DNA from: Endomychus coccineus
Taxonomy: Eukaryota > Arthropoda > Insecta > Coleoptera > Endomychidae
Assembly: GCA_958510875.1 (NCBI GenBank)
Contig: OY294068.1
Coordinates: 80,719,978 to 80,783,977 of the forward strand
Length of the DNA stretch: 64,000 bases
Direction: 5' to 3'
Part shown: piece by piece, positions 3,916 to 55,510 of the stretch
How the letters are laid out: every line of letters begins with the position of its first letter
Position numbering within the stretch: the first letter of the stretch is position 1
Notes under the pieces: generated by a model
Told to the model about the DNA's origin: nothing
What the model saw: the letters and a program-made list of their open reading frames with translations, nothing else
Database searches by the model: none
Made by a program: the position numbers and the translations under genes

Positions 3916-5733
3916 GAAACCTGTTTTTCTCTCAAAGTGAGGGAAGTCACGTGATCAATTGATCATAGCTTTTTCAAGATATTCAAGCTAAGTTTTATAC
4001 GATAAGCTTCGGGTTCGCACTTGTTCAACTTTGAATGCTTGTGTTTCTCTTTTCGGTGAACAGGGCGCAATAACCTTCACCGAGCTGTAATTCGGTCAAT
4101 ATTGTTCCTAGATAGATGCGTAGGAAAAAAAAAGTGTGTGTTCATTGCCTCCAATTTTTGTTACGTACTTTTTTCCGATAAAATGTAAGGTTGCCAAATA
4201 TTTGATAAAAATCATTCGAAAACCTGCTCTTTTCTTTTACCGAAAAATGTACAACTTCAACCGCAAATCAACGATCGACTTTGCGAAAAAAGTGTGGAGG
4301 GCCTTTGCTTATAATTCATTACTCTATTCTATTCCTGGGTCATTTGAAATTTCAAAATTTCCACCTACGAGAAGGGATGGAATTCACCCTCAGGCATGAA
4401 GCGCACCCCGAGATCGCCTCAAAGTTTCATAAGAATCGGTGGTTCAAAAAATTCAAAAATTCAAAATTAATCTTTTTATATGTTCCCAGCCGGTGGACTG
4501 GTCACTTCACCAATTTATCGCCTGCCTTTTTTCTTATAGTCAGGTCAATAGTTTTCAAAGACGCTACTTTTTCTATCAATGATTCGCGCGAATGATTCTC
4601 CGGTAATTCCTTTTGGCGAGGCAGAAACTGTTATCAACGATAGTCTACTTGTATGTTGTTTCTACACATAAGGTTGCTAAAAGTTTGAAACGTCAATTTC
4701 GAACGATAGTAAAAATCAATATATTTATTCATTAGTAGTAGACTTTATTAAAAAGTCGAACAGTTTATCTCCAAAATATTTATGTCGCAATAACGCAATT
4801 CACATTGTTTCTTATTTGTGAAGCATTAAAATTGTTGAATATAAATGCATGTCGTTGACTTCTACCAGAAGGCAGCATTAGTAATAGTGGATAATTTGGT
4901 CACGGTATAGTAAATCTGCCAGCAGACCATTACCCATTAACTTTCCATATGTCAATCCACACATCTTTGGCATTGGACGCTTGTTATAACGTCACAGACA
5001 GTTGTTAACAAATTTTATGTTTATGTCATGTGTTGGCTAAATTCTTCGAGTTATTCAGCTTTTATCAAATATAATTTCACGTTATATACTTGATAGACCG
5101 TTCTAACAAGATTGTTATAAGAAGATCTGGAAGAAGATAGTCTTCCCTGTTTATTTAGGAGATAATGCCAAATCCATACGGCATATCTATAAGTGTTGGA
5201 ATTCATGAATGGCAAAATTTTATTTCGTACTCTTTAATTTTTTGCAAGGAGTATTCTATAACTGGAACATTCATCCACGATCTTGCATATACATTCAACT
5301 ATCGCTATTGTCCCAGTAATGATGAGACCCAAAAGTTTAGTTGAATGAGAAAAAAATATGAAATTTAATATTTCTCTCAAAAATGATCCAAGCTTTTTTA
5401 TGGAATAAGACATCAAAGACAAAATATGAAATATAAAAGCATCAAAATCAATTTCATTAGTCATGCATTTATGATTATTGTAAACTATTAACGGATGAAA
5501 GTCTGATAAACGATAAGATTGTAGTAGGTGTAAAATCATTTTATTATTTCATTCAATTCAAATATAAAATACTTCCGATTCCAGTTAATTTCAAACACTA
5601 ACAGGGAATGATTAGGATAGTCGTCAAACTTCAGTCAAAGCTTTGATACAACAACAAAGCTGTGCCGAGTAGTGACAAAAAGTGCTCGCGAACACCAAAA
5701 AAGTGCTTTTAAGGTTTAATCATTAAGCACTAA
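3916..5733. other. Unannotated stretch (no gene seen)
   Basis: Several 60-105 codon open frames occur, but none shows domains, codon bias or splice context. The interval near 4290-4470 contains low-complexity AAAAATTC runs and could be old repeat DNA. Confidence 0.45.
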
Positions 5734-8555: not shown

Positions 8556-9404
8556 TATGTGGGTTGATCATGTATCTGACCTCTCGACTGAAACGGCCTT
8601 GCATCATCTAGTCACACGAATAGATGATGCTATGGCCCAAGCAACACGCCCCGGTGGTATTTATGGACATCGAAGGGGAAATTTGGTAACACATCCGTCG
8701 AGTCTATTTGCTCAGCCGCTGAAAAGCATAGAATCGGCCCAACATTAGTCAGGTTGATTGAAGCCATGCTATCTACGCGTGCGATAAAGGCGCAACATAA
8801 CGGATGCGTTGTACAATACACCGCTACAAAAGGTGTTCCACCTCCGCTTCTGTGGGGTCTTGTATTCGATGGACTCGGGGAGGAATTGGAAGACGCTGGG
8901 TTTTATGCCCAAGCCTATGCCGATGACTTGATAAGCGTCACATTTGGGCAGCACTTGGGGACGCTGTGCGAGTTGCAAAACACGCTGCTCAGCATAGTGG
9001 ACGGCTGGTGCTGCACGGAGGGGCTCAGAGTCAATCATAACAAAATGGAAATTGTACTGTTTACTAGGAAACGTAAGCTGGGCACATTACCAGAGATTAC
9101 TTTCTCTGGCAAGGTCCTGGAGCTCAAAGGGTCGGTGAAGTTTCTGGAAGAAATCTTAGACTCTAAGATGATCTGGCGCACCTCGAATATCGAGTCCTCT
9201 GAGTCATTTCGGGATGCAGAAAAGCTTTCAGCAACACATGGGAATTACAATCAAATGTTCTTTATTATGATCAGGCCTATGGTTACCTATGCTGCCGTAA
9301 TGTGGTATCCGGGGTCAGGGACTAGTATGTCCCAGCGCCTCCTAGACCAACTCCTGCGTAAGTATATTGAGCTTTATGAGGTCGGCTCCAACGAGAGCTC
9401 TTGA
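8556..9404 (+). pseudogene. Non-LTR reverse transcriptase domain, broken
   Basis: Reverse transcriptase that would copy element RNA at the target site. The first part (8580-8748) carries STETALHHLVTRIDDAMAQA and degraded motif A. The open frame 8754-9404 (216 codons) carries motif C as YADD at residues 55-58 (8916-8927), followed by the thumb with GLRVNHNKMEIVLF. The region before motif C reads KGVPPPLLWGL, where the family normally has a longer QGG-containing motif B, so several residues have been deleted. A frame change separates the two parts. Catalytic aspartates of motif C survive, but the enzyme cannot be functional. Confidence 0.88.
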
Positions 9405-11419: not shown

Positions 11420-11999
11420 ATTATTCATCCATTTGGAACTGTTCCTTTGGTTTAATTTTATGATTGCGTTTGTTATGACGGGTACATATTACAAGTAAAT
11501 AACTCATAACTGATCGTGAGCTAGATGAAATATATGAAAAATTATTTATCAATTTAGTCTAGATGGATCAGTAACATTAAAAACCAATATTTTTGGACAG
11601 CTATTTCTCTCTCTCGAGCTCATCTGCGAAACGATAAGGTTTGCAAAGACACTGAATGATCATCCTGTTTAAAATATAAATAACCCGACTAACAGAATGC
11701 TAGAGAGAACATGATGTCTAACGCCATATATCTAAGAGAAACCACTGAAACATTCAAGCAAATAACATCATCAAGTTATTGATTTCTCCGAGACAGCGAA
11801 ACAACTGTCCTGAACTATTAGTTTATAATGTTGCAGATTGATCTAGTCCAGAGAAACCTTACCATTGATTTCTGAAATTTCAATTTTTTTCTCAATTTAA
11901 CAATGAATTATTTATTTAAAAAATCGATGGTGGAAGGCGTTACTTCATGGTAATTTATCATTTTGATTATATGAAAGAATAACTACTTTGTTTTTATAC
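11420..11999. other. Unannotated; possible 3' UTR/intergenic
   Basis: Could include the 3' untranslated region of the exon at 11234-11419. No other structure seen. Confidence 0.4.
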
Positions 12000-12473: not shown

Positions 12474-12500
12474 TTTAAAACCTCTGGCTCAACCTTTGCT

Positions 12501-16074: not shown

Positions 16075-17380
16075 AATAAGGCTTTCGACACGGTTGACAG
16101 GAAAATATTGTTGGATAAACTATATGAAATTGGAGTAAGGGGTGTCACTAATCAACTTTTTGAAAGTTATCTTGTAAATTGTAAACAAAAAGTAAGACTA
16201 AACGGAGTTTCTAGCACAACTGAAGAAATTGAATACGGTGTACCGCAGGGGTCGAATCTTGGTCCGATACTATTTTGATATATATGAACTCTATTTTGAG
16301 AAAAGAAGTACATGGAGAGTATTTCTTTTGCTGATGATACGGTAACAATTTGTGAAGGGGAAAATTGGGAAATGGCTATATTACGAGCACAAGAAAATAT
16401 AAATTTACTAAATAAAGAACTTAAAGTTAATATGCTAACGGTAAACCCACAGAAAACTGTATATGTGACATTTGGCAATTACGTTGACAGTATTCCTAAA
16501 AACTGTTGCATAAAAGTTCATGAAAATGATTGTAATAAAGAAAAATGTAGTTGTAGCGAGTCGCATGTATCTGGGGGTACATATAGATCAACATCTGAGG
16601 TGGACCGAGCACATACAAAGTATTATCAAAAAAGTGAGATACATAATTTATGTTGTATATAGGTTGAGATATATTTTGGGGACTCCGGAGTTGTTGCAGG
16701 TGTATCATGCATTATTCTGTTCAATAGTCTATTATGAAATACTAGCATGGGGGGGAACTTATGATAAATACATAAATCCTATAATGAAAATCCAATTGAG
16801 AGTGCTAAGAATAATATACTTTAAAGATTCAACAATTGAACTAGAAGAACCATTTGAGCAACATAAGTTACTTACAATAAAAGAAAAGTACAAATTGGAA
16901 GCATTGCTGTACAATTATATAAATTTAAATACTGATTATGAAAGTAGGAATCTTACAAGGAATAATAATTTAAATTTAATTAAATGCTACAAAACTGTGG
17001 GTCAACAAAGAAATGGATATATTGCGAGATTGTTGTTTAATGCATTGCCAAATAATTTAAAAAATCTGAAAGACTTAACAGCTCTAAACCGAAAAAATAT
17101 AATAAGTAAAAATTTTATTGAAAAATGCAAGACGTTAAGCTTATCAAAAAGACTGAGTTGAATGATCAATTGATGTTTATTAGTTAAATAAGGAAAAAAT
17201 GTGCAATTGGAAATAGACTTTAATTTAGAATTTATAATTTAGTTTTTAAGTTATTTGTTAAGAATCAGGCCTGCGCATAGATGGAGAACCCATCTCAGCA
17301 GGGCAAATGTCATGTACTTTGATAATTGTTGTTTTAACACCTGAATGAATAAATAAATAAATAAATAAATAAATAATATC
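16075..17380 (+). mobile_element. 5'-truncated non-LTR retrotransposon (CR1/Jockey-like), AATA tail
   Basis: The element begins abruptly inside reverse transcriptase motif A and ends in an (AATA)n tail at about 17346-17378. It lacks an RNase H domain, so it is a different type from the 8.56-kb element. A short 3' region follows the last codon (17161) before the tail. The abrupt start and simple-repeat tail are typical of target-primed reverse transcription that stopped early. Confidence 0.85.
16078..17161 (+). pseudogene. Non-LTR reverse transcriptase, frameshifted
   Basis: Motif A appears as KAFDTVDRKILLDKLYE (16078 onward). Motif B follows as EYGVPQGSNLGPILF (about 16230-16275) and motif C as FADDT (about 16326-16340). 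The thumb is YLGVHIDQHLRWTEHIQSII, and the C-terminal part (16520-17161) ends SKNFIEKCKTLSLSKRLS. Frameshifts lie just after GPILF, within GE-YISFADD and near 16560. The early stops TGA at 16275 and 16284 follow the first of these. All three catalytic motifs are visible but in different frames, so the gene is dead. It would have acted in the nucleus at nicked target DNA. Confidence 0.88.
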
Positions 17381-18665: not shown

Positions 18666-20332
18666 AAGTTTAAAAACTAAGCTTGCTATTAATAAATATT
18701 AAAATATAATACAACACTCATTTTATCTTCTTGTTCGATCTGAAATATAATGTGTAACAAATAATTGAATTACATGGAAAAGAAACTCGACCTATAAAAT
18801 TCCTCTACTCGAATAACAATTCCTTACATTTATATGAAATCAGATTTATTTTACAAACACCCCGGTCTGAAACATATTTCACATAGTAATTCTAATAGAA
18901 ATTGGGCGCATTGTATTTTAAATTTTTAAATTATTTGTAAACTCTACAGAATAATCATAAAGTTCATTTAGGAACTTCTATCCAATTCAAGTCAAAACTT
19001 TTCAATTCATAATACATGATAAAATGTTCCTCTTCAAATAGAGGAGCCCACAATTATTTTGTAGACTGCTATTATGTGGGATTCCAAAATGCATGCATGT
19101 ACTTCTTTGATAATCAAGGTAATGTGCAATTATGCTTACCACTTTATTTTTTGCCAACCATAATTAAGTTTACAAGTGGAACAAGCAAGATATTTTGAAA
19201 CATAAAATACTGTTTATTCGAATTACAATTTTATTTATGTGTATAAATTAATCATTTAAAGCTTTGTAGTTCGATATGACTTCCAATTTAAATTGACTTG
19301 CTAATTTTTTACATGATGTTTATTTCTTCAAATTCAATTTATCGAAAAATACTGTTAGCAATCGAATTTTATGATACCATGTAATTTTATGAGAACCATA
19401 TTTTCCGTTAATGCAGCATCCAAATAACAATATAAAAAGAATATTTACTAACTTATTTCGTATGAATCGAAAATGGTACACGAATTTACTTCGTAAATAG
19501 AACAGATAATGCATATTTTGATGTATTTGCTATTTCCGTTTAAGCAATTTTCTTTAATTATCTTTAGCTCTCATGAACCCAAGCTTATAATCCCACGTCT
19601 CATTTGAACCAAATCAATTTGGTATTCTTATTTGGATGTTATCTAAGTTTCAACATTTAATTATTCATATTGTATTGAAATTATTTCGGTTTGCATGTTT
19701 CAATGATATATACCTTCATATTGTTATTGGAAATAATAATTATTTGGATTTCAAATCAATAATAATCGTAGTGGCTGCACTCCGATATCATAAGAATGTT
19801 CAAAAAAATGTAATAGCTCAACTCTATAGCACACGGATCAGTATGACAGCGATCCACTAGAGACTTATCAATTTTGATTGTCTACATCAATTTTATGATA
19901 CACAAACACAGGTGGTGTTAATTAAAATTAAGGTATGGATAAGTTCATGCTTGCATTAAAACTGGAATATTACATTGAATAGAGCAAATCAAAATAATAC
20001 ATGAAAAGTTTATTTAACACAGGATCACGATGAAATAAATATTAAAAAGGCTCGGCAAATTTAGATATTTATATTTAGTAGATGCTACATCAAAAGAATT
20101 TTCATTATTTGTAACATTTTTATGATACACGGGTGCCTCGTCATAAATAAAATTGGAAATAACTTGCATATAGACTTGAATTAGCATCGATTATTAATTG
20201 GAATTATCACCAGGTATATGGCTATCATAAAAATGTTGCAAACATTGACAATTGACGAGCCTCCCGTGAGTATTTAGGAGATCAATCAACTACAACTGTA
20301 CATATGATAAAGATTCTTGACCCAGTATGAAT
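18666..20332. other. Unannotated; dispersed short repeat
   Basis: No supported gene. A short phrase of the form TTTTATGATACAC-GG, then ATAAAATT, recurs near 19892, 20121 and 20785, possibly fragments of one old repeat. Confidence 0.4.
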
Positions 20333-20385
20333 TATATATAAAAATTCTCGGGAAATAGGTCACATTAACACTGTTTAAAATTTTC

Positions 20386-20427
20386 GTCTTTACGTACGTT
20401 TCGGTCTCACGACCATCATCAGAAGAC
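20386..20427 (-). ncRNA. Hammerhead-ribozyme-like motif, minus-strand partner
   Basis: The reverse complement of 20386-20427 is identical in all positions to the plus-strand motif at 20593-20634, including the extra U. Transcripts across the full palindrome would instead fold the two arms on each other, so self-cleavage would need transcripts that carry one arm only. Confidence 0.6.
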
Positions 20428-20592
20428 TTATCATGTCTAAAACTTGATTACTTAAAACTAATTGTATTACACAAATCGTCCAAATCACACCAATCTCAAT
20501 TAAAATGCTTTGGCGACGTGGGCATTTTAATTGAGATTGGTGCTATTTGGACGCTGTGTGCAATACAAGTAATCAAGTTTTAGACATAATAA

Positions 20593-20634
20593 GTCTTCTG
20601 ATGATGGTCGTGAGACCGAAACGTACGTAAAGAC
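20593..20634 (+). ncRNA. Hammerhead-ribozyme-like motif (type I, minimal), plus strand
   Basis: Read as RNA, stem I 5' strand GUCUU (20593-20597) is followed by CUGAUGA (20598-20604), one extra U and a stem-loop GGUC-GUGA-GACC. Then come GAA (20618-20620), ACGUACGU (a 2-bp stem III closed by GUAC), A (position 17) and AAGAC (20630-20634), which pairs fully with GUCUU. The core CUGAUGA...GAA, A15.1-U16.1 and a permitted base at 17 are all present. The extra U before stem II is a deviation from the consensus. Very short stem III is typical of hammerheads in Penelope-like elements. Cleavage would fall after A20629. Confidence 0.6.
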
Positions 20635-20690
20635 GAAAATTTAATACAGAGTGTTAATGTGACCTATTTCCCGAGAATTTTTATATATAA

Positions 20691-22527
20691 CTGTAGATAT
20701 ATATACAGTTAAGATAATAAGCTACCCTCCCTCAGATGTCAGGAGTATTGTTTTCAAGATGATTCCTATTACTTGCGAATTTTTATAGTACACAGACACC
20801 TTGTGCTAAATAAAATTGGGAACAAATATTGTTTCATTCTTTAAATAAAATGTGGCCACGTTAAACATAAAAATTCCAATACAACAGAAATGGCTTTACA
20901 TTATAGGAATAGCGAGGACGTAAAAATTCAAGTCTTTTAATTAGTTCACTCTATCAGTTTCGGAATAATTGAATAAAGGGAACATAACCCGTAGATACTT
21001 GAAATAGGAAGTTAATAAAAAGCATATCATAGAAATTCGTACAATAATTTAAATTTTTCAACAGTAAGATGGAATATTTTCAATTCCTACAACGAGCACA
21101 ACGTAATAATGCAGATAAAATACATATAACATTGAAATTGTTTTTACTGATAAATGAGAAAATTCATGAAAAATCTTATATTTGCTAGTTGAATTTGAAT
21201 CAATCAAAATTTAACTAATAAGTTTTTCAATTGAAATTTATTTAACAAACAAATTGGGAAAACATATCAATATAAGTTATTCCAACTATCCAAAAGTTTA
21301 CGAAAAGCTTCCAAAAAAATCGAAAACAATAAAAATTATTCGAATATAAAATATCTCAATTTGGATTACACGCAACTCAGCGAAACGATTATATTACCCT
21401 ACAAATTTGAAAGACCCGAAAACTAGAGGAACGCAATAGAAATGAATCTTTCAAATATGATAATTGCTCATTAAATGTAAACATTGGTAAGTTAATTTAT
21501 CCCTAGGTTTTGGACTCTCAGTACTCTCAGTACAATAGAAATTCGGGTAACATTCCATATGAACATAATTAATCTTTGTAATTGTTTTGAAATGAATCCC
21601 TCTAAGAGCAGCTTTCAATTAAAATACAAACGAATCGACTAGTTTTGAATGAGAATAGCATCCCCAAATATGTGGTAATTATTTTAAGATGTACTGATGT
21701 TATAATTTAGGCAAATCTACAAAATAAGACTTTTTTCTATGATCTTGGTTGCGATTTGATGGGTAGTAAATTTATTTGGAAACCTTAAATCTGCTGTTAA
21801 TAAATACATTTTTTCAAGGTAGCAATTAATATTGAACTACCAAGTGTCTCAAGTGTTCGCCTTAGTTAATAGAGAGTTTGGTATCTTGTATCTATTTCAT
21901 AAAGTTGTACGACGTCCCATCAATCACAACCAGATAACAATTAATGATTGTAAAATAATTCTCATCTATATAACTAGATTCAACTGGAAGGAATAAATAT
22001 GTCTAATTGATAACGATATCAAAAGACATGGGTTATATGAAGGTCACCTCGAGTGAGTAAATATGAATGTACACAACGTATAAATCAACGTTTAGATAAC
22101 TTCAATTAGGTATACTCCAAATATATCCACATCCCAACATGAAATAATTCCAGCGTGACTCACCCAAAATGTGTGCAATTGTTGTTAGCCTTCGAAACAA
22201 ATTATATTTGAACTACAAATTGATGCAGACAAAATCAATATTTTTTTTTGGATTATACTAACATCAACGTTTTTCGGAATTGAGGAAATTATGAAATAAT
22301 TTAATGTAATTCAATCCTCATAGACAGCTTTATATTTACTGCCCAGCATCGCAAAATTGTTCATGAATTTTTGACTATTTTGAGTATTGTGACCCCGAGA
22401 GGAGTTAAGTAAATGTTAGGTGGTACAGCTTTTGATACAAGGGAGAGGTGCTGTATATACAAAAATTGTATATAAACAAATTTAAAAAATATGTAATGGA
22501 TGAAACGAGTTCACGAAGATATGGGAA
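20691..22527. other. Unannotated AT-rich stretch
   Basis: No supported gene. The last few hundred bases (22380-22527) could be degraded downstream parts of the Penelope-like gene on the minus strand, but no motif is legible. Confidence 0.4.
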
Positions 22528-23155
22528 CTATATCGAAATTATGCTAAACAAGCTTCGTCTTTCGATCCTACGATAGATTATTATATGAAAGATAGCCAGT
22601 GTATAAAGGAGGTGGGGGGCTTGTGGTACAGGTTGATTTGGAATTTTAGACGAAGTGTATTTCTTTATGGCTTTTTGAATGTTATAATGGGAGAAGTTAT
22701 TTGATAATAAGACAGACGGAAGGTGTTTAAATTCTGATTTCAAGGATTGGGGTTGGGATAAGTTGACAGCTCTGTGCACCAAGTAGCTTATGACAGATTT
22801 TTTTTGGGCAGGGTGGTGGTGTGAAAGGCCATTGAGGTATCTATCGGTGTGAGTGGTTTTTCGATACACAGAATGTCCCAAAGTACCGTCACTCAGCCGA
22901 TTAACTAATACATCTAGGAACGGGAATGAATCTTTCGATTCAACTTCCATGGTGAAAAGGATATTGCCATGTAATGATCTTGAATAATTCAGGAAGGGAA
23001 CAAGATTTTCGCGACCATGTTGCCAAATAACAGAACTGTCGTCGACATATCTAAACCAACATTTCGGCTTGAGAACAGATGAGCCAATATCATCTTCCTC
23101 AAAAGTTTCCATGAAGATATTATAGCTATGAAAGGAGAAAGTGGAGAACCCATCT
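22528..23155 (-). pseudogene. Penelope-like element reverse transcriptase, partial
   Basis: Minus-strand 23112-22528 (194 codons) carries the palm motif C as FRYVDDSSVIW at residues 21-31, then FLDVLVNRLSDGTLGHSVYR and KTTHTDRYLNGLSHHHPAQK. All are characteristic of Penelope-like element reverse transcriptases. Just upstream, in another frame (about 23153-23105), MGSPLSPF is motif B, so one or more bases are shifted near 23110. Downstream the frame ends near residue 175 in non-family sequence before the GIY-YIG domain would begin. Fingers, motif A and the endonuclease are missing. Penelope-like enzymes are related to telomerase and use endonuclease nicks for priming. Confidence 0.9.
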
Positions 23156-24330
23156 CTTAAAACTTGTCATCGTACAGATATGTATTTCTAAATTCGATGT
23201 TTGCTCGTTGTATATTTATTTAAAAAACATGTAAAATAGTGAAATGAAAATAAATAAAGCATATTGACTAATTTGTTAGGTAAATTTTTGAAGCACGAGA
23301 ATCATAGTTTCGTTGATTATAATTTTGTTCTTTTTGGGCACAAATATTAATAAACTGCCAAAGATTTCATAGAAGCAATAATTTAAATAATGTTGCTTAG
23401 CAAATTTTCATAACATTCCCCGATATGACTGATGAACATTAGGTATATTGATGTCAATATTACTTAACTATATTTTGCAAAATTCCACTTTTGCAATTAT
23501 AATTGCTACAAGTTACCAGTTAAAACTCATTAATATGTCATCGAATGAGGTGCATTAGGAACCAACCCTTGTTCAATCGTCATTTTTTACAGGCATCAAT
23601 ATCTTCTCCAAACCTCGACACATAGTGCAACCACAGTAAAACTTTTCAGAAATTGTTCAACACTTTTCCAGCCAAGTAACTTAGAAGTACACAAATGAGA
23701 GTGCATTTTAAATTTTTTCGAGTCTTCGTTTGATTACGCGATACATTTTTCCTTCATAATAGATTCGCAATTAATATACTCTAATATATTGTTCTATGAA
23801 CGATGTATAAGATTACTGCGGTGTAACTGATCTTAAAATTCTAGTTAGCACACCACAAATATAGGTATTTGAAGAAACGCAATAGTATTGCTCTAGTAAC
23901 TAAGTAACTAATCGAAACTGATACATTTCTACTGATAATTCACCAGGACCGGCTAGCTCTGCACGAATTTTTTAATGGGGCCGCGACTACAAAATCAATC
24001 TATCATTTCTCTAAGCTATCAACTCTTGCAGACGAAGTCCGAAGAAGAATTGCTTTCACTCAAACTATTTCTAAAATCGTTAAAAAAGACCTAGAACAAA
24101 AATTAATTTTTCATCCAATTTTAAGCAATTTTGCAAAAATCCGCCTGTCCGTATGTCTGGATGTCCGTCACCAATCGCTTGTCTACACGATAACTCAAAA
24201 AAGTCCTATTATATTAAAATTTCGACAATAAATTGCTATACGATTTTTCAGGGAAATCGGGTAATAAACACACCCTGTTTGAAGGGTTAACATTTTTTTT
24301 AAATAATAACCCCTTAAGTATGCATTGAAA
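23156..24330. other. Unannotated stretch
   Basis: No supported gene or repeat was found upstream of the Penelope-like fragment. Confidence 0.45.
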
Positions 24331-28857: not shown

Positions 28858-29006
28858 GTGGTGCATGTGCTTGTGCGTGTGAATGTGGATGTGCGTATAC
28901 GTGTGCGTATATGTGTGCGTGTGCGTGTGCGCGTGCGCGTGCGTGTGCCTGTGAATGTGGATGTGCGTATACGTGTGCGTGTGCGTGTGCGTGTGCGTGT
29001 GTGTGG
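28858..29006 (+). repeat. Alternating (GTGTGC)n-type low-complexity tract
   Basis: About 145 bp of alternating purine-pyrimidine sequence (GTGCGTGTGCGT, GCGCGTGCGCGTGC) containing two copies of GTGAATGTGGATGTGCGTAT. Open frames on both strands are by-products of the repeat. Such tracts can adopt left-handed Z-DNA; whether this one does is not known. Confidence 0.95.
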
Positions 29007-29514
29007 TGCGCTTTCATTTATTTTAAATATTGATATGCAGTATAGAGGATATGATCTTGGGTCTACTTAGCAGTGATTCAGTCAATGAGTCAGTAGTATT
29101 TCTCTTTTACATAAAATAGATAAATTTATTAACTTACTGGGGGACGGACGGTATAACCATATGGTGAAAATGGGAGAGATGCCGCAGTGGGAGAGGTGTC
29201 GCCTTGGGTATCCGGCAACGCAGATGTACCATATAAGCAAACAATCTCCTTTGTATACGTTCAGTTGATTAGTAGCTATCTTTCGGCAGTATAATGTGAA
29301 CTCTGAGACTGGAAAATTCTAGCTAAGTTTTGTAAATTATTAAATAGTGAACATGCAACATACCCGAGCGTACATTAGGAATGAGATTGAATTCGAAAAA
29401 ATAGTTAACGACTTTCTTCGAGATAGAGAAAGAAACATTTCCGGTTATATCAAGACTCTTTAGAAAGCAGAATTCCGTTCGAACAGTGAAAACGGTGAAA
29501 AAAAATATGGGCAG
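29007..29514. other. Unannotated stretch; may include decayed Helentron DNA
   Basis: No gene is legible. GC-richer DNA near 29138-29230 is unassigned. Confidence 0.4.
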
Positions 29515-42207: not shown

Positions 42208-43858
42208 GTTTCAAGCAGTGGCGGTTCGTGAACTTTTTAAGAGAGGAGGCTGGACATAAAACCTTCTTGTAAAAATATACTCTATTCAGCCAATAAATTT
42301 AACCTTTGCACAGCGACCGTACCAGCTACTTCAGTGACAAAATTAATTGTTGCCAAGCAAGAACCAACGTGGAGGTGTAGAGTTTCTCTTGGCAAACAAT
42401 TTTTTTGTTCGTTTTTTTTTTTGGATTTTTGATATTTTTTTTTTTTTTTAATTTTTCATATTTTGTTTTTTTTTATTTTTATTATCTTTTTTTATATATT
42501 AGTTTGCGAAAAATGATCAATAATATTATCATAAAATGTATCATTTTGTTTTAAGTGTTTTACTAAATATTTTTCAATAGATATCAAACTAACATTGTAT
42601 AAACGATTTTGACCCATTGTATTTCGCATGTAAGTTTTAATTCATTTGAGAGTAGAAAATGATCTCTCCACCGATGCCGACGTGACAGGAATGGTGACTG
42701 TCAAACAAAGTAGTTTATAAAACTGAGGTAAAACTTGTTGCAAATCATTGTCTTTCATATATTTTATCATATCGGCGTGAATGTCGTACTGGCCTAAAAT
42801 ATCTTCATCCGAGTATAGGTATATAACCCATAATTCATTGTGCAGTGCTATTTTATCAAAAAATGTATATTTTAGAACTAAGTTATCTAAAAGTGTATTG
42901 GGAAACTCTTTTGAAAAAGATTCGAAAAATCTTCTATTCGTCAAGTCGAAAAACTCCAATTCATGTAAATCGGAAAATCAAATCTCAATTTGACCTTTAA
43001 TAGTATCTACAATTTCATAAAAGAAGTTGTTTATAATATAGTTTCTTGTCTACCAAATTATATGTTTTCCTCCTTTAACAATATTCTGTTATTTCTGTTT
43101 ACCGGTTAATTTAAACTTAATACTTGATGTAATATGTTCCTGCGATTTTTCGTGTCTGTCTATACCACGAGCTAAATTTTTCAAATCATCATAACCCGAG
43201 TGCCCCCAACATGAAGTTGTATCAGATGTAAATAGCAAGCAATATAATTTATTGTGTATTTCGATTTTGAAAGATACCTGTCATCACTAATCCTTTCAAA
43301 TCCGGTAAAGGCCGTTTATTTTTAACAAAACCGTCTTCTATCATATGTTAATCCACTAAATGGATTTTCTAAGAACTCAGCAACTAAGTCACTCATCATT
43401 TTAACGTTCATCCATTAGATAAATTATAACTTAACTACTTAACCTTACTTCGCCTCGCGGAACAAAAACAATAACTAACGGAACACGATTCGCATTCTTC
43501 TAGCAGCGGTAGGGCGGTAGCAAGTATTCGTATTTCATTCGATCGACGAGTGCCTACGAGAAGCTAGCCTACATAGGGTGTTGCCATATTCGCTGGCTTA
43601 CCCTACTTGGCAATTGAACTGGTTGGAAAAACGGCAACTGTGTTGACCACACGTATTTAGCGTTTGAGATATATAGAGAATCTAGCCTCTGGCCACTGTT
43701 GCCAGATTTAAAATAACTACTGAGAACGGGGAATTAATTGTAAAATTTAAAGAATTATCAGAGGAATAGGAAATAAAATGGAGAATGATCATTAAGATAA
43801 ATTGGTGAGGAGGCTGAGCCTCCTTAGCCTCCTTCGAGGAGCCGTCACTGGTTTCAAG
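42208..43858 (-). mobile_element. hAT non-autonomous element, copy 1 (1635 bp)
   Basis: The element is 42216-43850, with ends CAGTGGCGGTTCGTGAA and (complement) CAGTGACGGCTCC, and a perfect 8-bp duplication GTTTCAAG on both sides (42208-42215, 43851-43858). It encodes on the minus strand a TTF-type zinc-finger piece and a C-terminal hAT dimerisation piece, with the middle of the transposase deleted. Both pieces are frame-broken, so it could only move with transposase supplied from elsewhere. Low-complexity T-rich DNA lies at 42410-42500. Confidence 0.92.
42642..43250 (-). pseudogene. hAT (ZMYM1-like) transposase, internally deleted, copy 1
   Basis: Minus-strand pieces in order. First is a TTF-type zinc-finger segment with CWGHSGYDDLKNLARGIDRH (about 43225-43140), then KLTGKQ. 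A deletion junction (…NIVKGGKHIIW…, about 43080) follows. Then comes the C-terminal region, open at 42959-42642: FFDLTNRRFFESFSKEFPNT, DNDLQQVLPQFYKLLCLTVT, and IPVTSASVERSFSTLK at the end, the hallmark of the hAT dimerisation domain. The central DDE/insertion region is lost. Copies 1 and 2 share this same junction. Confidence 0.85.
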
Positions 43859-51069: not shown

Positions 51070-51902
51070 AATAAAGGCAAATTAATTGAAACATTTGATT
51101 TTATATTAAACAGTGATGACTTTTCAACAGATCAGGTTTCATTAAATGCTGCTGTTGGTTTAAAATCTTATTTAGAAAATCAAGAATTTTTGTTTTTTCT
51201 TGATACTTTTAAATTAATATTTGAACAAACTGATGTTATTTTTCAAATTTTACAACATGAATTCACTGATATAATTTATTCAAGAGATCGTTTAAAACAT
51301 CTCATTGATAAAATTTCAAGTTTCCGTTATACAGAATTTCATTTTAATATTTTATTTGGAATTTATTCAACTGATGAGGCTTCTCCCGTGAAAAGGAGGA
51401 AAACATATAATTTGGTAGACAAGAAACTACATTATAAACAACTTTTTTATGAAATTTTAGATACTATTAAAGGTCAAATATTGAGATTCGATTTTCCGAT
51501 TTACATTAATTGAAGTTTTTCGATTTGACGAATAGAAGATTTTTCGAATCTTTTTCAAAAGAGTTTCCCAATACACTTTCAGATAACTTAGTTCTAAAAT
51601 ATAATTTTTTTGATAAAATAGCGCTGCACAATGAATTGTGCGTTGTATACTGGGATAAAGATATTTTAGGCCAGTACGACAGTCACGCCGATATGATAAA
51701 ATATATGATAGATAATGATTTGCAACAAGTCTTACCTCAGTTTTATAAACTACTTTGTCTAACAGTCACCATTCTTGTCACGTCGGCATCGGTGGGGAGA
51801 TCATTTTCTACTCTCAAACGAATTAAAACGTACATGCGAAATAGAATGGGCCAAAATCGTTTATACAATGTTAGTTTAATATCTATTGAAATAGTATATT
51901 AA
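51070..51902 (+). pseudogene. hAT (ZMYM1-like) transposase, partial, copy 3
   Basis: The plus-strand middle region begins LIETFDFILNSDDFSTDQVS (about 51085) and AAVGLKSYLENQEFLFFLDT, then QHEFTDIIYSRDRLKHLIDK. After EASPVKRRKTYNLVDKKLHY the frame is lost at about 51480 because two bases are inserted relative to copies 1 and 2, and a stop (TAA) follows at 51507. The open C-terminal frame 51510-51902 contains NNDLQQVLPQFYKLLCL-like sequence, VTSASVGRSFSTLKRIKT and MRNRMGQNRLYNVSLISIE, the hAT dimerisation domain. The conserved Glu of SVERSF is Gly here. It is non-functional. Confidence 0.88.
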
Positions 51903-53354: not shown

Positions 53355-55510
53355 CCGACACAGTCGCGGGAAAAAGAGGGTGTATATATCGATATGTGAC
53401 GTAAAAATATCTAATGTCGAAAGGGTTTGTATTTTCCAAGTCACCATTGATAATTCCAATAGGAGTGAATTTTGTTGTTGATTGCTTTGTGCTATTATTA
53501 TAAGCTAAAACTGCGTATTTTACTTTATTGCTTATTAATTAATTTTTAGTTCTCTCTATTGTTATGGGTACGGATATATGTTCGATAAGTGTGGAATGGA
53601 ATCTTTCCACTACACCATTTCAATCAGGATGCTGATGTGAACTTATGAAGTGAATGTCGATCTTATGTAGCTTTAATAATTCTTGAGGTAAATCAGTTTT
53701 GAATTCGCATCCATTATCAGAAAGTATTTGGATTGGTATACTGTGGTGATTATACGCGATTTCAGTTAAAGATTTCTGGGTCTTGCGCGCACTTATAGAA
53801 AACTAATTAACTATTGTGAAAAATGTTGGTTTTTCCAACGTCAGGGTGTCAATGTGAGCGATTTCGAATGATGTCGATGCAGTAGGTGTTATATTGAATT
53901 TTAATTTGAGAGGATGTCTACCATATTTAGCTGATCTACAGTATGGGATCACATTATTCATTTACGAAATTCTGTATTGCTTGTTGCATTTTGGGCCAAA
54001 AATAAAGTTCTTTCAATGGAGTATAAGTATCCTCAATGCCACGGTGCTTTTTTTCACCAGTGTGATATCTATCAATAGCATTATTTATTTGATCGTTCGA
54101 ATTCTCAATATCCTGTAGCAACTTGTGCATCGAACATCGAATTAATTTCTGAGTTTTTAAAATGTCTACGTTGCTGATAAATGCTTCATAAATTGGAGAT
54201 TGAAAATTAATAAAATAATTAACTTTAAAAACTAAATATTCTTTTGATAATAAAATGAATTATACCTATCGTTCTCGTAATTATTTTTTGAAATTTGCAA
54301 GATAAACCGTTGGTATTGTTTATTGAATAGTGACTCTTATTAATGGTCTATTAGCAAAATAATTTACTTCGATGATTGATATTTGATTTTTTAAATAATT
54401 CAGAGGTTTCTCCTGTGAGTACCTAATTGTTGCTGATTCACTATCGTAGTTATAGTCGTGTTCAGTACCGAATTCAACAATCATAGATGGAATATCATTT
54501 CCCATTACTATCGAGATCTTAAACTTTTCCATATACTGAAATATATATCCTTCTTATATATGATGGTATAATCGAGCTCTTCCAATTTGTGACGCCACCA
54601 CAGGAGTTTCGAATCTGTTTCTTTCAACGAAAACAACCACTGAAGAGGTTTGTGGTGAAGGCGTACATACATAGTTGTCCATACGATGGCTAATAGCTCC
54701 TTCTCTGTAGTTGAGTAATTCACTTCGTGATTGTTCAAGGTGTGACTGGCATCGGCGATATTTCCCAATATAAGGTCCTTGCCATACTAAAAGCACCAAG
54801 GGCGAAATTCCAGGCGTCTGTAGTACTTTGTTGAAATCGGGGTACCTACTGAAGTATCGGTTCATTTGTGAGCAAATTCAAACGAGATTCAAAACATTGT
54901 CGATATTCTGGTTTATTTATATGTCAATTACCTACAGCATTTTTTTCGAGCATGTTGTAAAGGGTTTTGTGATTTTAACAACGTTCGGTATAAATTTCCT
55001 ATAATACCCCAATAGTCCTAAAAATCCTTTGATTTGTTTTGTTGTAGCTGGTATTGGGTAGTTTGAAATAACTTTATTTTTTTCAGGGTTGGGCTTTACA
55101 TCGTCAGGTGTAACAATATGACTCAGATAGCCGACTTGCTTCCGAAAAAATTCGGACTTATCTAGTTGTAGGTAACATTGACGTTCGATTCTTGAAGTCT
55201 TTCAAATACAAGTTTCAAGTTTCATATTTGTTCTTGAAGACTCGTACCTACTGAAGACGATTAAGTCGTCTAAGTAAACCATCAGACAAATGACATTATT
55301 CAGTACTCTAAGAATATCTTTCATAGCCCGTTGGAAAGTTGCAGGGGCATTTTCAGCCTAAAAGGCATTCGCAAATATGTAAAATGACCGTTTTCAGTGA
55401 AGAATGGCATTGTTGGTACATCATCAGGATTCATCTCTATCTGGTGAAATCCTGATACTAAATCAAGTGTGGTAAAATACTGACAGCGCCCTAACTTATC
55501 TGAAAGGTCT
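53355..55510 (-). pseudogene. Gypsy-type LTR retrotransposon pol, broken
   Basis: Minus-strand order. Reverse transcriptase motifs are TTLDLVSGFHQIEM with NPDDVPTMPFFTENG (about 55490-55360) and [12 protein letters not shown] (YLDD at 55276-55265). The RNase H-side segment is NYSTTEKELLAIVW (about 54723-54660) with HHKPLQWLFSLKETDSKLLW. Integrase follows: HIDTLTLEKPTFFTIV, LSDNGCEFKTDL and HQHPD-NGVVERFHS (about 53860-53580), with the D and E residues of the DDE core visible. Many frameshifts. Gag, the protease and both LTRs are not found. It abuts the tail of non-LTR copy 2. Confidence 0.85.

Follow-up and report, generated by a model that had tools for sequence, protein, structure and literature searches.

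Two mirrored hammerhead motifs in Endomychus coccineus as the probable scar of one Penelope-like element insertion

What brings two hammerhead-ribozyme motifs, facing each other head to head, into a single palindrome of a beetle genome? The palindrome in question lies in a 64,000-nucleotide stretch of Endomychus coccineus DNA (contig OY294068.1; 'the window' is this whole stretch), which is 33.6% GC and holds just four open reading frames of at least 120 amino acids. Most likely it is the scar of one insertion, in which two 5'-truncated copies of a Penelope-like element (PLE) were joined 5' end to 5' end. How PLEs transpose is poorly understood, and according to passages of PMC11167929 the steps that follow the first priming await validation. 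With thousands of copies in one genome, the mechanism of insertion becomes a countable question, and a regular difference between the two ends of an insertion, the interesting part of the results below, hints at how such elements insert.

The palindrome and its element

The palindrome is imperfect, about 359 bp long (20332-20690), with gaps of 10 bases and 2 bases between arms that are 94.7% alike. Because both motifs sit in the arms of one palindrome, they represent one event rather than two. Used as a query against the 906-Mb genome, the palindrome gave 103 matches from the 40 scored among 2,795 candidates; places fetched for comparison carry L numbers. At one of these, L067, a tandem arrangement with a period of 2,966 bp, a copy of the motif stands on either side of a minus-strand PLE reading frame (a 713-amino acid frame and a frameshifted 125-amino acid frame lie between the motifs), and the right arm of the window matches the L067 ends at about 85%. 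Since the motif of L067 flanks a PLE frame, we place the palindrome, with very little doubt, in a divergent PLE family, which bears out the attribution to Penelope-like elements in the sequence-only reading, an earlier annotation of the window. We call this family B, and a second PLE family of the same genome family A.

Among its best 20 matches, the reverse transcriptase (RT) part of L067 is 30.6-36.4% identical over 420-536 amino acids, with a best E value of 6e-82 to PLE-kind RTs, and the family B alignments reach into the GIY-YIG part at 27-33% identity. Two PLE traits are present: a PLE-kind RT between repeated ends, and pseudo-long terminal repeats (pLTRs), direct and inverted, with an optional tail and a target duplication. 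A Pfam search of the L067 protein, which matched neither RT nor GIY-YIG, weighs against the assignment; among the relatives, P0010 scored 22.4 bits for GIY-YIG, against a cut-off of 22.6, and PF01541 was detected in five of the 120 listed proteins.

With L067 as the reference, the locus is read as follows.

20303-20508, minus strand: left PLE copy, 5'-truncated, with a long tail; its homology with L067 begins 84 reference bases upstream of CTGATGA and reaches ...GAATCTTTATCATA
20303-20331, minus strand: long-tail extension, in the left copy alone (left aligns to reference position 390, right only to 357)
20509-20690, plus strand: right PLE copy, 5'-truncated, with a short tail, by homology to L067
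20294-20305, no strand: likely left target-site duplication AACTGTACATAT, by eye; 11 of 12 bases equal the right copy, and the final bases of the left tail fall within it
20689-20700, no strand: likely right target-site duplication AACTGTAGATAT, by eye
20386-20427, minus strand: hammerhead motif of the left copy, 42 nt
20593-20634, plus strand: hammerhead motif of the right copy, 42 nt, with A20629 as the presumed cleavage base
20605, plus strand: extra U, placed after A9 and ahead of stem II; with its two neighbours (A20604-T20605-G20606) it reads AUG

The two copies stop 84-97 reference bases upstream of CTGATGA, at a junction near 20508/20509, and the left one reaches about 30 bp deeper into the start of the reading frame than the right. 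The window keeps little more than two mirrored hammerhead-bearing ends because both copies stopped soon upstream of the hammerhead. The remark in the sequence-only reading that the palindrome lacks coding DNA is correct for the palindrome itself, and is no oddity, both copies having stopped inside a largely non-coding end. The likely duplication, AACTGTA(C/G)ATAT, is 12 bp long with one mismatch, was recognized by eye and is placed as in the other loci.

The hammerhead motif and its extra U

All the hammerhead parts that had been described at 20593-20634 of the plus strand are present there, and the minus-strand motif has, as claimed, the same sequence. Stem I is GTCTT/AAGAC (20593-20597 pairing with 20630-20634), the core CTGATGA occupies 20598-20604, the extra T is 20605, stem II is GGTC/GACC (20606-20609 with 20614-20617) with a GTGA loop, GAA lies at 20618-20620, and stem III, AC/GT, closes a 4-nt loop. 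The motif thereby has the CUGANGA...GAA core and cleavage base of the hammerhead class, and three stems can be drawn. Chance would not be expected to produce such a motif in 64 kb: the core pattern, with up to three mismatches, occurs in the window at just these two places and in none of 100 shuffles, while a looser CTGATGA...GAAAC pattern (0.12 expected) again selects these two alone. We use the term hammerhead for a motif seen in the sequence, not for a proven fold; a minimal type I motif is ordinary for the Penelope group.

The covariance-model search suggested by the sequence-only reading gave no hit, which leaves the motif itself unrefuted. At the gathering score, Rfam matched neither hammerhead motif of the window, and at E values up to 10 the sole trace was Hammerhead_3 on the minus strand (13 bits, E 8.8); microRNA family matches at the palindrome reflect the long hairpin itself. 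With the E limit at 10, L048 and L067, two loci in which a motif of this kind stands beside a PLE reading frame, likewise yielded no hammerhead, and the silence of Rfam carries little weight because these PLE-linked motifs were also missed. Two points count against the motif as drawn. For the 42-mer alone, the hammerhead fold is predicted at -5.9 kcal/mol and a different fold, the best, at -9.7 kcal/mol, and PMC3088659, in a passage that does not cover the position after A9, describes insertions at some core positions as reducing activity. In the 42-mer monomer, predicted pairing probabilities are 0.77-0.97 for stems I and II and 0.005 for stem III. The predicted 42-mer dimer has an 8-bp ACGUACGU helix and forms different stems elsewhere; a supplement legend of PMC3088659 states that a palindromic stem III/loop III permits dimers, which would suit ACGTACGT here. 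Passages of PMC11167929 report that an anole motif was cut only with its protein, and mention PLE hammerhead self-cleavage at 3-25 mM Mg2+. A joint function of the two motifs is not expected, because an RNA spanning the palindrome would pair arm to arm (predicted -233 kcal/mol over 351 nt) and would hide both.

The extra U before stem II had been proposed to be a lineage feature rather than decay, and both the genome counts and the second family uphold this. A core pattern including the U, with a variable loop, occurs at 12,487 places (6,285 + 6,202; reversed control pattern, 0 and 0), and a core without the U but with a stricter stem II at two places genome-wide; the patterns differ, 91 of 100 listed with-U places also passing the stricter stem II in a hand count, and a fair comparison is roughly 11,000 against 2. 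In family A, whose hammerhead is CTGAAGA-T-GCCACC...GGTTGGC-GAAACGTC, the AUG of the PLE frame is made up of A9, the extra U and the G that opens stem II. From this AUG the frame runs for 835 codons in seven of 11 loci (L048, L053, L059, L060, L061, L064 and L065) and is shorter where the copy ends; open frames of the family reach 895 amino acids. A start codon within the ribozyme core of family A accounts for the odd extra U. According to PMC11167929, the anole PLE frame opens where stem II begins, C3 and G8 preceding it; this wording implies that the anole element would have the same hammerhead AUG. In family B, by contrast, the frame from the hammerhead AUG ends after eight codons (L067, L009, L010), and the U there is therefore inherited or otherwise used. 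The two families share the core and differ in the stems, the pattern expected of a conserved structure; no statistical claim is drawn from just two families.

Unequal tails, target duplications and the route of insertion

In all 24 scorable family B pairs, the tail at one end is about 30-35 bp longer than that at the other. Twenty-one pairs were scored first (L009, L010, L014 and 18 of the 19 head-to-head pairs defined below), and each had one long and one short tail, the long one on the left in 11 and on the right in 10. The 19th pair, L067, and the best-match loci L013 and L016, each with one motif damaged, followed the same pattern; L015, whose right landmark is missing, was left out, and L011 and L012 are repeats of L009 and L010. 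A landmark run over whole loci gives many chance 'S' rows, and rows at known outer ends were used alone. For family A, 14 of 20 fetched loci had both outer ends, judged by eye from the translated ends, and 13 of these 14 pairs had one long and one short tail; in 13 family A loci the ends lie 87-97 and 56-62 bases past the hammerhead. Over both families, the tails were unequal in 37 of 38 scored pairs, mostly with target duplications, which points towards priming at two ends and away from a simple fold-back.

Outer direct repeats scoring at least 10 were found in 19 of the 21 family B pairs and in 25 of 420 cross-locus controls; at a score of at least 12, the figures were 14 of 21 and 0 of 420. 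Family A gave 13 of 14 against 2 of 182 controls and, under the stricter setting, 10 of 14 against 0 of 182. The repeats found by program are mostly 12-17 bp long and may include microhomology.

Orientation was surveyed in the first 100 with-U core places, counting neighbours within 5 kb. Of the resulting 27 pairs, 19 were head to head, five tandem (four on the minus strand, one on the plus) and three tail to tail; no strand shuffle among 20,000 reached 19 head-to-head pairs, and all 10 pairs of neighbours within 1 kb were head to head. The inverted pairing, which had been taken for a special arrangement of the ribozymes, is the commonest one among close neighbours.

At the inner ends, the truncation points of family A are unlike on the two sides, some copies being more than one unit long. 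At 10 of the 13 family A joints the two sides share 1-6 bp, and at four (L048, L049, L055, L065) at least 3 bp; an overlap of just 1-2 bp often arises by chance. Three of 26 family A 5' ends (L047 right, L051 right, L066 left) lie inside the hammerhead and may mark a stall of the enzyme. Ends at the hammerhead cleavage site were considered and rejected: none of the 26 ends in 13 loci falls there, and at L047 and L066, where alignment ends had suggested it, the sequences continue 15 and 25 nt into the motif.

A route of insertion has to accommodate the family, the tails, the orientation bias, the duplications at most sampled pairs and the counts. We infer priming at both ends, in the following order of steps. 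In the RNA of the element, a minimal hammerhead would lie close to where the reading frame begins. The element's enzyme would cut the two strands of an AT-rich target at points about 10-15 bp from each other, and each cut end would then prime reverse transcription from either of two start sites, about 30-35 nt apart and 3' of the hammerhead; one cut end would use the far site and acquire the long tail, the other the near site and the short tail. Both cDNAs would then proceed upstream through an uncleaved hammerhead, stop early and be joined 5' end to 5' end. The copied RNA had not been cleaved at the motif, since each copy continues through the motif and has its tail on the 3' side of the cleavage site; passages of PMC11167929 agree in naming unprocessed RNA as the dominant substrate. 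Two-ended priming of one family B insertion is, in our judgement, a likely explanation of the palindrome, favoured because the two ends of one insertion differ and because the anole PLE protein in PMC11167929 cleaves and extends both target strands. We are readier to doubt than to affirm a stronger form of it, by a narrow measure: that insertion always has to proceed from two ends, an asymmetric complex making one far and one near start and thereby giving every complete insertion exactly one long and one short tail, with the uncleaved hammerhead serving another step and the U kept for the start codon.

Several observations weigh against two-ended priming or qualify its basis. A looser first landmark made six of the 21 family B pairs long-long and was tightened later with the printed sequences in view; these sequences do not bear out the long-long calls. 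In family A, L056 has two long tails and, at its outer ends, no duplication (score 8); its flanks mirror each other over 658 of 659 bases, and it is therefore possibly a recent inverted duplication or a misassembly. A clear duplication was not found at L075 (score 7) or at L094/L095 (8), and at L009, which is the locus of the window, the program's choice was the internal TTATATATAA (score 10), element sequence rather than the duplication. The joint of L052 bears a short perfect palindrome, as fold-back priming would give, and the short family B pairs are truncated rather alike, the shorter arm making up at least 40% of the sum in seven of 10 (counted by hand, L075 excluded, among pairs picked for short spacing). 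Examination covered the 38 of the 100 surveyed places that are in head-to-head pairs and, beyond these, the left end of L067 alone. Finally, the in vitro work described in PMC11167929 saw no apparent difference between top and bottom start sites, and one long plus one short tail is not predicted there.

Some of these points speak for fold-back self-priming, in which a single cDNA folds and primes its second strand, the mirror arm being a copy of the first and the product a hairpin. This was put forward in passages of PMC3846280 for Penelope elements of Adineta vaga, with palindromes at inverted junctions, and would suit both the L052 joint and the arms of L069, L070, L071 and L072, which are 98.8-100% alike. 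A copied arm should keep the tail of its template, yet the tails are unequal in all the scorable family B pairs and all but one of family A; L010, L014, L068 and L073 are clearly unequally truncated, and the sides of family A end at unlike points. As the sole route we regard fold-back as quite improbable; it may contribute to the near-symmetric palindromes, though alone it does not give unequal tails. A mixed route, in which each end starts its own cDNA and near-symmetric palindromes arise when the longer cDNA folds back to the other end, would cover unequal tails, similar truncation points and the near-identical arms of several short pairs together. It requires an extra step, and the window arms resemble each other less than the left arm of L014 resembles one of them (96.9%); we consider it unlikely.

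Two further explanations would not start from a PLE insertion. A retrozyme, a small non-coding hammerhead element spreading via circular RNA, is suggested by the type I hammerheads of animal retrozymes (PMC7229834), but those described in the same passages are small tandem repeats with circles of about 170-400 nt, and here the unit is 2,966 bp long and coding, with a PLE protein; close pairs are mostly inverted, and copies run through the hammerhead, which argues for a template uncleaved there. This we hold to be very improbable. That the palindrome is a foldback DNA transposon or miniature inverted-repeat element merely containing the motif is scarcely credible: inverted ends and thousands of copies fit, but each arm is the end of a PLE and takes in the beginning of the PLE frame, paired motifs lie anywhere from 48 to 4,373 bp apart and the tails are unequal.

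Two-ended priming thus retained as the preferred account, much of what surrounds it is already in print: PLE hammerheads, inverted pLTRs of which one bears a tail, and target duplications (PMC6155905, PMC7229834, PMC3846280, PMC11167929, in the passages concerned). Hammerheads in the pLTRs of PLEs go back to Cervera and de la Pena (2014), as cited in PMC6155905 and PMC7229834; these share with ours the minimal type I form, a tiny or missing stem III, a position on both sides of the frame and the tandem arrangement, the differences being that more than 12,000 core places occur here in one genome and that close neighbours are mostly head to head. The anole element PAc (Poseidon, Anolis carolinensis; PMC11167929) likewise has two adjacent start sites, inside the 5' end of its frame, that bound the tail, and both strands are cut and extended; the genomic pairs here show one start site per end, and in family B the frame from the hammerhead AUG soon closes. 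Closest in layout are Pen2a of A. vaga and its relatives (PMC3846280), with head-to-head inverted pLTRs, a 31-bp optional tail on one of them, junction palindromes, solo pLTRs and target duplications of 8-10 bp, shorter than most of the repeats here; the main text of that paper uses neither 'hammerhead' nor 'ribozyme'. A rule of exactly one long and one short tail per insertion was not found stated in the passages covered from the open-licence literature, PMC3846280 presenting the tail as optional on one inverted pLTR.

Searches outside the genome and other features

Searches beyond the beetle concerned the motif and the palindrome. Phage DNA searched with the palindrome returned weak matches alone (E 0.4-5 among the 20 matches listed). 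The exact motif was absent from viral contigs, where a looser motif occurred eight times, and the motif was absent from bacterial and archaeal genome contigs. Translated hammerhead peptides gave five matches near the ends of 159 proteins, none of them a likely translation of the motif. Four of the eight loose viral matches, in the IMG/VR contigs L001, L003, L005 and L007, show a type III hammerhead layout with an extra U before stem II, a closed stem I of 6-7 bp, a stem III of 4-6 bp and GUC or GUA; the pattern required the U and says nothing of its frequency. Rfam at its gathering score did not report these four hammerheads, and annotated phages searched with L003 gave no match. A further viral contig with a loose match, L002, carries elsewhere (4638-4729, minus strand) a Hammerhead_II match of 43.3 bits in Rfam.

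Within the window, one more PLE remnant lies outside the palindrome.

22529-23166, minus strand: RT fragment relic of family A, 212 amino acids

It was considered as the palindrome's own element and rejected, its family having another hammerhead and other ends. The relic has 43 database matches at 40-60% identity, the named ones from insects and several with a GIY-YIG-like C-terminus by eye, and is 76-82% identical to 149 other scored places in its own genome. Other RT remains lie at 8628-9401 and 16300-16659 (both plus strand), with RVT_1 below the cut-off. A Hammerhead_HH9 match at 11573-11644 (minus strand; 20.9 bits, E 1.5, gathering score 52) is probably due to chance, and a GT-rich repeat block at 28867-29036 has RNA family matches at chance level only. 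An RNase H-like piece of a long terminal repeat element is found at 54511-54786 (minus strand). Similar hAT-like transposase ends occur at 42645-42977 (minus strand), with Dimer_Tnp_hAT, and at 51510-51902 (plus strand), the latter judged similar by eye.
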